Assembly: GCA_963681505.1 (NCBI GenBank)
Contig: OY811976.1
Coordinates: forward strand, 4,206,003-4,270,002
Source of the DNA: Eunapius fragilis
Taxonomy: Eukaryota; Porifera; Demospongiae; Spongillida; Spongillidae
Length of the DNA: 64,000 bases
Direction: 5' to 3'
The notes under the pieces are model-generated. The model did not search any database, was not told where the DNA came from, and worked only from the letters and a program-made list of their open reading frames with translations. The translations under genes were made by a program, and so were the position numbers. Of this stretch, positions 17,556-23,690 are shown piece after piece (position 1 is the stretch's first letter; every line of letters starts with the position of its first letter).

Positions 17556-17690
17556 GCTATATATTTTGAGGTGTATATATACCTAATGAATGATATAGAC
17601 CACTTGCCGGGAAGGATCAAAACATTAGCTGGCATATAGTTTTGGACCAAAACATGTGCGTTATTTAGAATTTTGTGTATATACGATGGA
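17556..17690 (+). repeat. Left terminal inverted repeat of the ISL2EU-type element
   Basis: Contains CCGGGAAGGATCAAAACATT and GTTTTGGACCAAAAC followed by GTGCGTTATTTAGAAT. The reverse complement occurs at about 22215-22340. Between them lie the element's two genes, which point towards each other. Confidence 0.8.
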
Positions 17691-17724
17691 AATGACGCAA
17701 TTGTTCATAGTTTTTTTTTTAAGA

Positions 17725-20152
17725 TGCGGTGCTTTGCCTCGGCGGGAAAGGGAGGCGTTTTTTCTGCATCCCTGCAGATCTTTCGGTACGCAAGAAGTGG
17801 ATTGCTGCTCTAGTTTTTGACCCACCAAAGAATGCTAGGGTCTGCAGTAATCATTTCGTTACAGGTTAGACTCGTTGGCCTTCATGATAGGCCTATTTAA
17901 ATGTTAGTTTGTTATTCTGTAGTGCGTGTAATGTTTCGTTCGTGTTCAATCGATGCATAGGAGTATAGATACAACAGCTAGTGACGTAGTCTCCCATGGT
18001 TTTTGTTTATAGGTGCACCATCTAAGGATGACAAGCATGTTGACTATGTGCCATCCGTGCTTTGGAAAGGGAATAACCAACAGATGAAACCTACGGTCCG
18101 TCATCCTCATGAAACTGCAGGTATAGAGAAAGCAATATCATGAATAGATACTGACGATGATCGAGGAAACAGAATCCTGCATAGATGGAGTTACACAAGG
18201 AGGGGAAGAAATTGATCAGCAGGAGGGCACAGATAGTTACTATGACACAGATTTCATAAGTGATGAAGAAATAGACAATGGAACATGTGACAGAGGTTAT
18301 GAACAGTTACATGATACAGCTGCTGGGAGCAGTATTAATACTGCTCCCAGCAGTAATTACTGATACGGACAATAATGAGGAAACAGAATCCTGCAAAGAT
18401 GAAGATACACAGGGAGAGGAAGAAATATATCAGCAGGAGGGCATAGATAGTTACTATGATACAGATTGCATTATAAGTGATGAAGAAATAGACAATGGCA
18501 CATGTGACAGAGGTTATGAAGAGTTACATGATTCAGCTGCAGCTGAAAGCACAGATACATGTAGCTTGAATGACAGAGAATATAGTACCTGCATAGGAGC
18601 TGATGAAGAGGAAGAGGAAAGAAGGTCAATGATTGAAAAGAAAAATAGTCAAAGGGATGAACAAAGAGAAATCTATGAATGTTATACATCTGGACGGTTC
18701 CAAAACTTGGGTGTTTTAGAATGTGGAACTGAAGCATCAATCGACCAACATGAATCAGATAGAGTTAATTCCAATCACAGTTTACTTTCATTTTGCAAAC
18801 AGTTATGGAAGGAAAATGGTACACTGAAAAGCTGAGTGATGTACCTGACACGTGAGTTGCATGAAGTAAAATTTGGAGTTCATACAATAAAATAGATAAT
18901 AGAAAAACTTGCTTTTACACTGGTCTACCAAGTTATGCACTTTTTGTGACCCTTTATAACATTCTGAAGCAGTCATCTAGATCCAGTGATCGATCAATGA
19001 GAATAGAGTATTTTTAGCTGTAATGATTAAACTGCGCTTGAACCCTCCATTAGATAATCTGGCTTATCGTTTAAGAATCCATCCGTCCACATTTTCTAAG
19101 GTGTTCCACAAATGGCTTGACATGATGTACTGGAATTTAAAGCAATTAATTGTTTGGCTAGATGTAGCTACTGTGAAAGAGAATTTGCCAGATGTTTTCA
19201 ATCACCAATTTGAAAATGCTCGATGCATAATTGATTGTTAAGAAGTTTTGCTTGAGCGTGCACTGTCAGTTAAAGCTAGAGCTGCTACTTATTCAAATTA
19301 TATGAAATACAATACAGCTACACCAGCTGGTTCAATTGAATTTGTATCCCAATGCACGGTGCGGGAGGGTGACATAAGACCCTAACACAAGAATGTGGAT
19401 TTTTAGACCTGATAGAGGAAGGAGACATGGTGCTAGCTGATTGTGGCTTCAACATTGCCGATGAACTTGCCATTAGAGGTGCTACACTACAAATTCCAGC
19501 ATTCACAAGAGGCAAAAATCAGCTGTCTTCTGCAGAGGTAGAACACTCTCGTCGATTGGCACGTGTGCGAATACATGTAGAGCATGTTATTGGACAGATG
19601 AAGAAGTATACCATTCCCAGAGGCGTAGGAACGTATTTAAAAGTGGGGGGCTGAAGTGAACTTGATCAAGTGGGCGTGGTCATTTATGTGCCTTGACGTA
19701 ATATTACGTCATGGCCCGCGAGACTAACAAACCATACGCAACTGTATACAATGTATAAAATGTGGCAACTAATGAACTAATCTTGTAAATTACATGGAGT
19801 GGCTAATCAGCTAACCTCCTAAGCCTTCATTCCTCCCAAAGAACTTTAAAACAGAGGGATACGTGCCCGTTACTATCTTTCGCTTTGTCGCCATGAGTTG
19901 GTGTCACATGTACATATACCGCATTATTTAATTATTCATACTCAATAATATAAGTGGGGGGGCTTAGCCCCCACACATTTAAAAATGGGGGGGGGGGTAT
20001 AGTCCCCTCAGCCCCCCCTTCCTACGCCTATGATTCTTAAAGGAACATTGCCAATTTCTACGATAAAGAGGCCGTCTGACAACGTGGCCACCATAGACAT
20101 GATTATAGTTGTCACTGCTGCACTAACCAACCTCTCTAATAGCGTAGTATAG
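17725..20152 (+). pseudogene. ISL2EU transposase: THAP finger, acidic linker, HTH_4, DDE_Tnp_4; broken
   Basis: Exon with a THAP zinc finger at 17725-17864 (DLSVRKKWIAAL then RVCSNHFVT) splices to 18013-18119 (HVDYVPSVLWKG), the usual continuation of a THAP domain. A long acidic region follows (18157-18835) with an internal duplication (DSYYDTD, SDEEIDNGTCDRGYE twice). At 18915-19240 comes the HTH_Tnp_4 region (GLPSYALFVTLYNIL, LRLNPPLDNLAYRL), then DDE_Tnp_4 with first D in ARCIIDC, second D in MVLADCGF and E in EVEHSRRLARVRIHVEH. Breaks: frameshift near 19015, TAA at about 19240, frameshift near 19375, and a 417-bp MITE (19616-20032). The C-terminus resumes after the MITE (KGTLPISTIKRPSDN ... 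LTNLSNSVV) and ends at TAG 20150-20152. All three catalytic residues are still present. Confidence 0.82.
19616..20032. mobile_element. MITE inserted in the ISL2EU transposase
   Basis: Terminal inverted repeats share GGCGTAGGAA (left CCCAGAGGCGTAGGAACG; right, reversed, CATAGGCGTAGGAAGG). ATT occurs at 19613-19615 and again at 20033-20035, a 3-bp target duplication. The transposase frame stops on the left side and resumes on the right at the homologous next residues. Poly-G/poly-C blocks near the right end resemble those at 9948-10030. Confidence 0.85.
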
Positions 20153-20233
20153 GATTATTGGTGCATTGCATATTAATGAGTGTATATTGCATATGTAGTC
20201 CAACACTTACATATAATTTACAGAGCACCTAAT

Positions 20234-22175
20234 TTACACTGCAGCACCTAATTTCTGCCTGCACTCATTACAAAACCACGTAGAATCTGGAACTGTGTCT
20301 TCTGTGATAACAACACAGTTATAATGAAACCATTCAGTTTCTCAGTCATGGCCATCACATGCAATCATATCACCAAACTCTCCACGCTTACAGGAACAGA
20401 ATACTGCATCGTGACTTCAGTGGTTCCACTCCAGTATTGGATCAAGCTTCCTTGTGAGCAGCTCCGGTAGAATATACTTGTAAAAAAAGTCTTCTAACTT
20501 GGGGATGACTGCTTCAATAAACTGATGATCAGCTTGGATTCTCTGGATAGCGATACCCTTAGTAGTCCAGCATACAAAATCACATAATTCTTTCTTCTAT
20601 ACAGCCATCTGCATTTGTACCTGATAATAGTAATCATGTGTTTTCTGTAAACACAACTGGCCATTCTTGTCCAGTAAGTAGAAAGTGCTGTCCTTAATGT
20701 TTGTGGGGGGTGTATCCTTGTGTTTGAATGGGACTTGATTTCAAGCAATCCTTCTCCACAGCACTTACAGGACACCACACCATCTGGGGTGGCAGCAATG
20801 AATGGGTATTCAGTGCTTACTAGAATGCCAGCTGGTTTTGTATTAAACCCTTTGTGGTCACGTTCCATAACCCTTTGATAGTCTAGCTTAGCAGTTGCTT
20901 CATTCTCAATACCCCAAGCCAGGGATGGCACTCTAGCACTGGTTTTTGTATACTGCATGATCTGTTTACCAGTGCAGAAGGAAACACTTTTCCTCTACAC
21001 TTAGCAACACATCCAGCCAGAGATGCTGTTATTCTGCGAACACGATGCTCAAACCATAATGTAGTGCTTGCTTGGTCTCTTGTCGACTGCTCTAGAAATA
21101 ATGCCTCTGCCTCAGTAATAACAATTGAAGAGCACCTAGCCACGTCTGAAAGCCTTGTGTCTGTGTAGGTATGGTTCTTGACATCAAACAATGATGAGAG
21201 TGGTAAAGGAAGGCTAATATCACAATTAATTGTGGATGTTTTAGTCCTAACGTAACCAGGCACAGCTGTGAAGATTGCAGCAGTTGGATTGACCTCGTGA
21301 ATAGATTGCAGTAGCAGTGCCATACTGATGACATTGTGATGTTGATCATGATTTAAATTTACTGATCTTGGCCTTTTTTGCCCAGCATTTTCCTTTAATC
21401 TTTTAGGTTGTCCAAAATTGATGTCTATAACACGGGCTGGGTTAACCTAGAAGGTGAAATGTTGGTAATCTCAGCTGGCTTGAATCGTTAATAATCACAA
21501 GGTTTTACCTTTGTGGAAAACGTTTGATTCCACTTGCATGATAGAGATGTAGGAGCTAGCTTCTCTATGCTCAACCTCACACATGCTTCCACTTTAAACA
21601 GAACTGCGACAATATGGGAACATATTTCTCCAAGGCTAAATGCAAAACAACATACAGCAAACATGTATCATCATTAGACGGTGCTGCATAAATGCAGTAC
21701 ACTGTACACATCATACCCAGCCATGCATGTACAGTGTGCCATCAGAATTCTACCGGATGTCTTCTCAAGTGCTACCCATGGCTGATGAGGCTTCTCCGAT
21801 GTGCGCTGCAAAGGGTTCGCCAGAGCTTTCAGAAGGCAATTATTATTTCCATAACCCAAGTCGTGATAATACTACCCAGCCACAGCATATGTATGTATGT
21901 GAGAACATGTACATGTACGTAGATGTAATTTTTTACCTCATGTAGTAATTGAAAGCTTCAAGGCTTTTGTGAACTTTCATATTTTCCCTTGTGTAACCCA
22001 CGGGCGTGTTAATAAAATAATCATAAATCGATGGGAAATCCTCTGGTGGCCACTTGGAGACATCATCAATCCAATGGTGATTTTCAATCTGATATGGATC
22101 CTGGCTTGCTTCACAGGTCTCTTCGACTGCCCCATAAAGATGCTGGGATCTTTCTCATGTATCGAGTCTTGTCAT
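20234..22175 (-). pseudogene. SWIM zinc finger - YqaJ nuclease - PHD finger protein of the ISL2EU element, broken
   Basis: From the 5' end on the - strand: a conserved N-terminal block (WIDDVSKWPPEDFPSIYDYF, about 22070-22010); a SWIM finger split by an intron, with CxC in the exon ending at 21717 (LMAHCTCMAG) and CxH in the exon 21509-21635 (GLGEICSH); and a YqaJ nuclease in the exon from 21446 (LAWGIENEATAKLDY, STEYPFIAATPDGVV, EGLLEIK, then DYYYQVQMQMAV in another frame). A C-terminal PHD finger follows (FCSCKRGEFGDMIACDG ... WFHYNCV ... WFCNEC) and ends at TAA 20234-20236. Lesions are two 1-nt frameshifts (near 20945 and 20730), a TAG inside YqaJ (AV*KKELCDF), a TGA at 20417-20419, and a TGA at the fourth PHD ligand position. 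YqaJ proteins are exonuclease-like (lambda Exo fold). The exon boundaries upstream of about 21860 are uncertain. Confidence 0.82.
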
Positions 22176-22214
22176 CCCCTGCGAGTCCATTGACAATTCA
22201 TGATACGTATATAC

Positions 22215-22340
22215 GCATAGTGACATCATTCGTGCGTAATATTCTAAATAACGCACACGTTTTGGTCCAAAACAATATGGCCGCTAATGTTTTGATCCTT
22301 CCCGGGATGACATGGCAAGGGATCTATACCCAGTGTGTAT
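22215..22340 (-). repeat. Right terminal inverted repeat of the ISL2EU-type element
   Basis: Read on the - strand it matches 17556-17690 over roughly 110 bp, including CCCGGGAAGGATCAAAACAT and TTTTGGACCAAAAC. Confidence 0.8.
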
Positions 22341-22799: not shown

Positions 22800-23690
22800 G
22801 GTCACAAACACTACACTCCTCCCCCTTTAGTTCCAAACTTCAAGTTGACGATGTACACGAGTGCAATGTCTGAGTACATCTGGTTCAGGAGCTTCTGTTG
22901 GTTTCACAGTGGGTTCTGCTGGGGGCATCAGGAATTGGTTCTGGTAGGGCCTGTGGAACAGGTTCTGCTTGGAACAACCTCTGGAGTGCCAAGTGTCCCC
23001 TTGGAAACATCCTCAGATGTAACAGGTACCACTTCTTCACAACCATGAGCCTGTACATGATCAATATGACGTCACACTTGCTGACTATCACTATGGATAA
23101 TGACCATGGACACCAGACCTGTCATGGAAATCACCTTCCCTCGGACCATTTCCACTGAAACTGCGAGTATACACCAGGCCAGCCGTTCTGAACGCATATG
23201 AGTCTTAGCACGCTCATCATGCCTCTTCTTCTGGTGTTCTTGCTCTTTCTGGACTCTGATTCACACCTCTGGGAACAGGAAATGAAGGTGTGATCTTGGC
23301 TTATGCCCAAACAACAGTTCTGCCGGAGAATGACCAGAAGTAGAGTGAGGAGTTAATCTGTATTGGAAAAGGAATCGGGATAGATGAGTAACCAAATCCC
23401 TCCCCCCCCTCCCCCCTAACCATCATCTGCACGGCTTCCTTGAATTTTTGCACTGCCCGTTCAACCATTACTATCTGGATGGTAGGGAGCACACCTAATT
23501 TTTCTAAACCCATTCCTTTTAACGAAGGTAGCAAAATCCATACTGGTGAAGGCAGAACCATAATCAGTGACCAACACTTCAGGTAGCCCATGAGTAGAAA
23601 AGCTATGCCTGAGAGCTTTGATAACCTGCAAGTAGTCCAGATCACAAAATGGACTCATATGACACAAGAACACTACCAACATGTAATTTC
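22800..23690 (-). pseudogene. Gypsy integrase remnant
   Basis: On the - strand near 23690-23470: IKALRHSFSTHGLPEVLVTD, GSAFTSMDFATF and APYHPDSNG, the usual integrase core around the second catalytic aspartate (here TDYG instead of TDNG). The following ERAVQKFKEAVQMM carries the catalytic glutamate but lies in another frame. Frames with the GHSPAELLFG-type C-terminal region are broken. The N-terminus is truncated at about 23690. Non-functional. Confidence 0.7.

Follow-up and report, generated by a model that had tools for sequence, protein, structure and literature searches.

The ISL2EU elements belong to the PHIS superfamily (Han et al. 2015, PMC4482050), and the available text of that paper gives them terminal inverted repeats (TIRs) of 6–259 bp, usually with a GG start, and a target site duplication (TSD) of 5'-AT-3' in A|AT|T. 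The same text calls the function of the second open reading frames (ORFs) of PHIS elements unknown and reports PHIS elements to be absent from sponges. The nearest functional parallel to the element described here is, by analogy, RAG2, which is likewise the second protein of a DDE recombinase and ends in a PHD finger, a reader of trimethylated lysine 4 of histone H3 (H3K4me3); RAG2L of ProtoRAG is described as lacking a PHD (accessible parts of PMC11844651 and PMC4411706). RAG2 is, however, a Kelch propeller and not a nuclease, and no relationship of the proteins is claimed. KolobokE is a DNA transposon that also encodes a lambda-exonuclease-like PD-D/ExK nuclease, but its transposase superfamily differs, the nuclease follows the transposase domain, and no PHD is mentioned in the accessible part of the report (PMC9587614). 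In Rehavkus and the SWIM-bearing Mutator-like elements, a protein of a DNA transposon likewise contains a PHD or a SWIM finger, whereas there the PHD is located in the transposase and the superfamily is another one (accessible part of PMC6446971). Here, the window, a 64,000-nt stretch (C6:4206003–4270002) of a genome searched over 219 Mb in 24 contigs, was analyzed, and the element at its positions 17597–22325 is a dead copy of an ISL2EU-type cut-and-paste DNA transposon.

The second protein of this transposon is a single polypeptide, in which an N-terminal region is followed by a SWIM finger, a linker, a YqaJ nuclease and an ING-type PHD finger. The genome was searched for YqaJ, which gave 118 matches among at most 150 candidates scored, and the 20 best loci were examined in 9.9 kb each. 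Eight loci of one family (L026–L033) show a mutual identity of 99.6–100% in pieces of 1.4–3.8 kb. Six of the eight copies contain one uninterrupted frame of 630 aa with the SWIM motif, then YqaJ, then the PHD; in L027 and L030 this frame is broken in two. Convergent to it, a 532-aa frame was found in L030, L031 and L032, and in L032 it matched DDE_4 (177.8 bits), HTH_Tnp_4 (74.1 bits) and THAP (46.2 bits). Because the copies are near-identical (more than 99.6% over ∼3.8 kb in the longer ones), elements encoding the SWIM–YqaJ–PHD protein appear to have moved recently. Frames containing both YqaJ and PHD were also observed in L035 (514 aa), L041 (538 aa), L036 (415 aa) and L040 (349 aa). Among the 20 best loci, a PHD motif lies downstream of YqaJ in 18 (with a stop inside it in L025) and is absent from L042 and L043; a short transposase motif is present on the opposite strand in all 20.

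The pairing of YqaJ with the PHD was also observed genome-wide. One transposon PHD was used as the query, the best 150 of 295 candidates were taken, and places were counted, with near-identical copies of one family counted separately. Among the matches listed, 87 of the 118 YqaJ matches are followed on their own strand, after 160–771 bp, by a PHD (86 distinct PHD matches). Within 3 kb, no PHD lies upstream of any of the 118 on that strand or in either direction on the opposite one, and 64 of the 150 PHD matches have no YqaJ partner. Since the pairing occurs in one orientation only and within a narrow distance, chance or an assembly artefact was rejected as its source. When the YqaJ-to-PHD part of a related contig (L156, described below) was used as the query, 134 match rows were obtained, of which 53 extend, as a single alignment, from the YqaJ core to within the PHD, and 34 of these 53 contain no stop. 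The SWIM–YqaJ–PHD order proposed in the initial annotation was thus recovered both in the 630-aa frames and in the genome-wide pairing of YqaJ and PHD. The counter-case raised there, a PHD or SWIM part forming a gene of its own in intact homologues, was ruled out by the 630-aa frames and the 34 stop-free alignments.

This combination had also been called little studied, which fits the publications found. Neither PHD nor SWIM appears as a word in the main text of Han et al. 2015 (PMC4482050), and neither finger is mentioned in the available text of PMC9179366 (where the one "PhD" is a degree) and PMC12730594. Among the publications listed, none combines a PHD finger with ISL2EU or YqaJ in its title or abstract opening; a mention elsewhere, in Repbase or in protein databases is possible. 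Automated annotations of animal proteins that combine YqaJ with SWIM or PHD presumably exist.

By predicted fold and catalytic motif, YqaJ is a lambda-exonuclease-like nuclease. The 630-aa protein matched lambda exonuclease at 2.7e-6, and phmmer gave 9e-7 when only the nuclease part was compared. In the YqaJ alignment (A2), all seven rows share the same PD, EIKCPY and Q-x-Q-x-Q residues, and the PD ... E-x-K motif aligns to lambda exonuclease. An AlphaFold model of L156 (15 alignment rows) was confident mainly in the nuclease, with a predicted local distance difference test (pLDDT) of ∼80–94 in most blocks, and a Foldseek search with the nuclease model returned LHK-Exo (E 1.5e-10) and lambda exonuclease (5.7e-8). 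Structure prediction, suggested in the initial annotation as a check, spoke for the nuclease, and the PHD had low confidence in the model (see below). As a separate observation, the YqaJ match at C2:14865685–14865999 lies in an open frame of 1809 aa, by far the longest, with one TAA inside the match.

The PHD finger was characterized with a profile of the PHDs of seven families. Its top matches were ING1–5 and the yeast ING relatives (60.7–88.1 bits), and the next family was NSD3 (37.5 bits). The eight zinc ligands (C4HC3) are invariant in all seven families (alignment A1), and decayed PHDs, the window copy included, have lost some of the eight. The aromatic positions were counted in undecayed PHDs: in eight of eight (the seven of A1 and L156), a Y, W or F precedes the first ligand, and the Trp of a W-F/Y-H motif is invariant. 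In ING2, these two aromatic positions form part of the H3K4me3 cage. Because the finger is of ING type and keeps these cage positions, a role as histone reader is likely, and the transposon PHD is a candidate for reading H3K4me3. Among known PHDs, those of ING1–5, Yng1, Yng2 and Pho23 are thus closest by profile, with the same C4HC3 ligands and the two aromatic cage positions, but the transposon PHD is fused to a nuclease, and Pfam matched no ING N-terminal domain in the fused proteins. Identity is 37–63% among the PHDs of eight families or loci and 46–63% to human ING1, ING2 and ING4. The transposon PHDs are thus no closer to one another than to these human INGs and do not point to one particular host ING gene as their origin. 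Two further loci, L065 and L069, contain stretches that by eye resemble host ING exons; each covers the PHD incompletely, as though introns divided it.

The SWIM finger of the window copy is split by an intron, as the initial annotation had claimed. A pattern-based splice search gave a single GT-AG solution (21636–21716, 81 bp), which joins the two halves into CTCMAGLGEICSHI, and the spliced finger reached 22.4 bits against the Pfam SWIM cut-off of 19.6. At one and the same codon, introns of 64 bp in L156, 68 bp in L036 and 62 bp in L043 were found, again with one solution each. The spliced fingers of L036 (18.5 bits) and L043 (15.6 bits) and the finger of L044 (12.2 bits) remained below this cut-off, and the Pfam SWIM profile gave no match in L156 (spliced), L026, L035, L041 and L039. 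The motif is unsplit and invariant in five other families (five of five rows, alignment A4). Searched against solved structures, the SWIM profile gave no significant match (best E 1.3), and the region preceding SWIM had no Pfam match in the window copy or in L156. From its sequence, we take the finger to be a real SWIM that is slightly divergent.

The window element has the transposase on the plus strand and the SWIM–YqaJ–PHD gene convergent to it on the minus strand. Its ends were set at 17597 and 22325 by comparison with copies of miniature inverted-repeat transposable elements (MITEs) and with other families, and the following features were identified:

17595–17596: left TSD, read as AT; TA at 17596–17597 fits equally, and the genome's other families show the same pattern
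17597–17674, plus strand: left TIR, starting AGACC
17723–17866, plus strand: remnant of the THAP domain, one exon (PF05485, 27.8 bits, cut-off 23.9)
18163–18540, plus strand: duplication in the acidic region that separates THAP from HTH, copies ∼215 nt apart (families D1 and D2, identity 85% and 96%)
19011–19142, plus strand: HTH_Tnp_4 of the transposase (PF13613, 45.1 bits, cut-off 27)
19376–19615, plus strand: fragment of the DDE_Tnp_4 catalytic part, with stops breaking the upstream frame (PF13359, 61.6 bits, cut-off 24.8)
19622–20031 (approximate ends): nested MITE-like insertion that breaks the transposase frame (inverted ends I13 and I14)
20033–20149, plus strand: C-terminal remnant of the transposase beyond the insertion, by eye like the end of the L156 transposase, no Pfam match
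20252–20410, minus strand: PHD finger of ING type, interrupted by one in-frame stop; PF00628 matched its second half (27.3 bits, cut-off 24); genome-wide entry C6:4226263–4226412
20695–20961, minus strand: YqaJ, lambda-exonuclease-like nuclease core by prediction (PF09588, 41.6 bits, cut-off 22; 41.4 bits genome-wide)
20961–21446, minus strand: SWIM–YqaJ linker and start of the nuclease domain, in overlapping open frames, with frame shifts near 20883–20994; no Pfam match
21488–21635, minus strand: exon with the second SWIM half and downstream residues (Pfam scan, splice search)
21636–21716, minus strand: GT-AG intron within the SWIM finger, at the codon position common to L156, L036 and L043 (splice search)
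21717–21871, minus strand: exon with the first SWIM half (CTCMAG) at its end (open frames, splice search)
21937–22154, minus strand: N-terminal exon, conserved region, no Pfam match, by eye like residues 3–188 of L156
22238–22325, minus strand: right TIR
22326–22327: right TSD, read as AT

The copy is dead, because the transposase has stops and the nested insertion, the nuclease gene shifts frame in YqaJ, and the PHD has an in-frame stop. The insertion has the ends GGCGTAGGAA/TTCCTACGCC, and its inner part gave 43 further match rows in the genome, several of which share one place. The assignment to ISL2EU in the initial annotation was supported by a THAP, HTH and DDE_4 transposase that is convergent to the YqaJ gene and has intact domains in L032. 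With ISL2EU the element shares these three transposase parts, YqaJ as the second ORF, the length class and a 2-bp duplication that can be read as AT. The inverted repeats (17607–17674 and 22238–22305) comprise 68 nt with 93% complementarity, a length within the 6–259 bp of ISL2EU, but their starts are not GG. If the duplication is AT, the TIRs of the families start with AGACC, AGAGGG, AGAGCTC, AGACAAC or ACATAG, and a GG start was seen in no family with visible ends. AT flanks both sides of the window element and of the copies of the 630-aa family with two visible ends (six of eight), and a TA duplication, shifted by one base, agrees with the same flanks. L043 and L044 are flanked as A|AT|T, and L025 has GT on one side. 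Seven short MITEs (∼135–230 bp between the outermost matched bases) share the inverted ends of the window element, at C16:5149664, C20:5393409, C3:1842722, C17:3446763, C13:4959598, C20:1503730 and C3:10688034. In a comparison of MITE flanks that covered all but the left ends of L010–L012 and L020, the flanks deviating from AT were those of L012 and L013 on the right side and of L023 on the left side.

A sister lineage without the PHD is represented by L042 (C4:9239407) and L043 (C5:7933883), which are ISL2EU-like and carry YqaJ and a DDE_4 transposase. In L043, the transposase has HTH and THAP, the SWIM finger contains the common intron, and a SAP-like stretch lies upstream (17 bits, below the cut-off of 26.3); end modules of the accessory protein appear to be exchanged. 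Trees were calculated from 11 DDE and 12 YqaJ sequences. L042 and L043 form the longest branch, so that midpoint rooting places them outside the sampled PHD-bearing families, and four added viral sequences joined them with a support of 0.985. The trees are small and fit either one PHD gain in a common ancestor or a loss of the PHD in the sister lineage, between which their unrooted form does not decide. A viral origin or viral parallel was rejected: in a motif-pattern scan, none of the best 80 of 254 YqaJ relatives in IMG/VR showed the PHD pattern. One IMG/VR locus, L092, has a SWIM-like pattern on the other strand.

These domains suggest how the second protein may act; the chromatin-targeted end processing or integration proposed in the initial annotation is kept as a hypothesis. 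The SWIM–YqaJ–PHD protein would act as an accessory factor alongside the transposase. Its PHD would dock on the tail of histone H3, most likely at trimethylated lysine 4, so that the complex of transposase and accessory protein would work in open, transcribed chromatin. The SWIM finger would hold DNA or the transposase, and the exonuclease would trim or resect broken ends, those of the donor gap being the most likely substrate, and would do so in the 5'-3' direction if it resembles lambda exonuclease in action. Resection of the donor gap would in turn favor repair from the sister copy and thereby keep or raise the copy number. For this accessory model, in which the PHD docks on H3K4me3, SWIM holds and the exonuclease trims ends, we see even chances. 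Its far-reaching form, a second independent invention of the role of RAG2, is put forward tentatively and is rather doubtful; here an exonuclease-borne histone reader would couple movement to H3K4me3, the donor gap would be resected, sister repair would restore the element, and one ancient fusion would have founded the radiation.

Several observations weigh against this interpretation. One cage position, a Ser in ING2, is not kept in the transposon PHDs. The Pfam PHD cut-off (24) was reached in only two of the six PHD-bearing proteins scanned whole, L035 (24.9 bits) and L156 (24.1 bits), and L026 (22.1 bits), L036, L040 and L041 were below it; the PHD of L026 did pass the PHD-1st_NSD model (27.9 bits, cut-off 27). 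As the Pfam PHD model was mostly below its cut-off, the PHD assignment is based mainly on the ING profile comparison. The PHD had a pLDDT below 50 in the AlphaFold model, from which the domain arrangement cannot be read. Among the matches listed, 31 of the 118 YqaJ matches have no PHD nearby, two of them being L042 and L043. L043, moreover, has SWIM and YqaJ in long frames without a PHD, which indicates that the PHD is dispensable in some of these elements.

The closest rival to the accessory model with a guiding PHD is a brake as in RAG2, and sequence cannot separate the two. The PHD would fold back and block target capture until an H3K4me3 tail releases it, limiting transposition to certain chromatin or certain moments. 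The PHD of RAG2 inhibits transposition as well as recruiting to chromatin marked by H3K4me3 (accessible part of PMC11844651), and here, too, the PHD stands at the end of the second protein, behind a variable linker; RAG2, however, is a Kelch protein and not a YqaJ nuclease, and we regard such a brake as improbable. The Myb-like protein of Harbinger has been proposed to act in the expression or nuclear delivery of its transposase. If the second protein served mainly such expression or delivery, the PHD and nuclease would be side functions, and to this we give a small chance. Transposition of Harbinger needs both genes (available text of PMC9179366) and the two-gene layout is common to most PHIS groups (available text of PMC4482050), but nuclease motifs invariant throughout A2 would be unexpected for a mere carrier. 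Transposons capture host exons, and the ING-type profile of the PHD would suit a passenger that was acquired from an ING gene of the host and plays no part in transposition. Such a passenger is very unlikely, since PHDs that are only 37–63% identical across eight families or loci have nevertheless kept all eight ligands (seven of seven) as well as both aromatic positions, the recent 630-aa family has an intact PHD, and the sampled PHD-bearing families group together under midpoint or viral rooting. Finally, the TGA inside the PHD of both the window copy and L025 might be read as selenocysteine, a reading rejected as having next to no probability because the stops of decayed PHDs lie at scattered positions and include TAG and TAA besides TGA, with no stop in the seven A1 families.

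An ING-type PHD on the second protein of ISL2EU leads to a testable proposal, namely that a transposon of the cut-and-paste type carries a chromatin reader of its own. This may be an independent parallel to RAG2, for which the recently moved copies with open frames provide test material, and if the PHD reads histone marks, active chromatin may be sensed by the elements during transposition. An apparent sponge also joins the hosts of PHIS elements, which were reported absent there (available text of PMC4482050).

A search of genome contigs returned three relatives, and the PHD pattern was present only in L156 (JAAXGN010000095.1), a 3.6-kb contig filed in a Candidatus Poribacteria bin. L156 matched residues 64–614 of the 630-aa protein, with 36% identity in the best segment, and contains the SWIM motif with the common intron, followed by YqaJ (67 bits) and the PHD in one frame. 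Its convergent DDE_4 transposase scored 159.6 bits, and the contig stops before the position of THAP. Since Poribacteria are sponge symbionts and the intron is of spliceosomal type, L156 is probably misbinned sponge DNA, a contamination of the public record.

Next to the transposon, at ∼23300–23690 of the window on the minus strand, are frames that by eye resemble a retroelement integrase core. Elsewhere in the genome, two cathepsin-L-like exons, L163 (C10:2288270) and L164 (C5:8058690), read CGASYAF and are silicatein-like; replacement of the catalytic Cys by Ser is a mark of silicateins, the spicule proteins of sponges (accessible part of PMC6233156). Together with L156, these two exons make it likely that the host is a sponge. 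Seven other cathepsin-L-like exons read CGSCW in six cases and CHSCY in L167.

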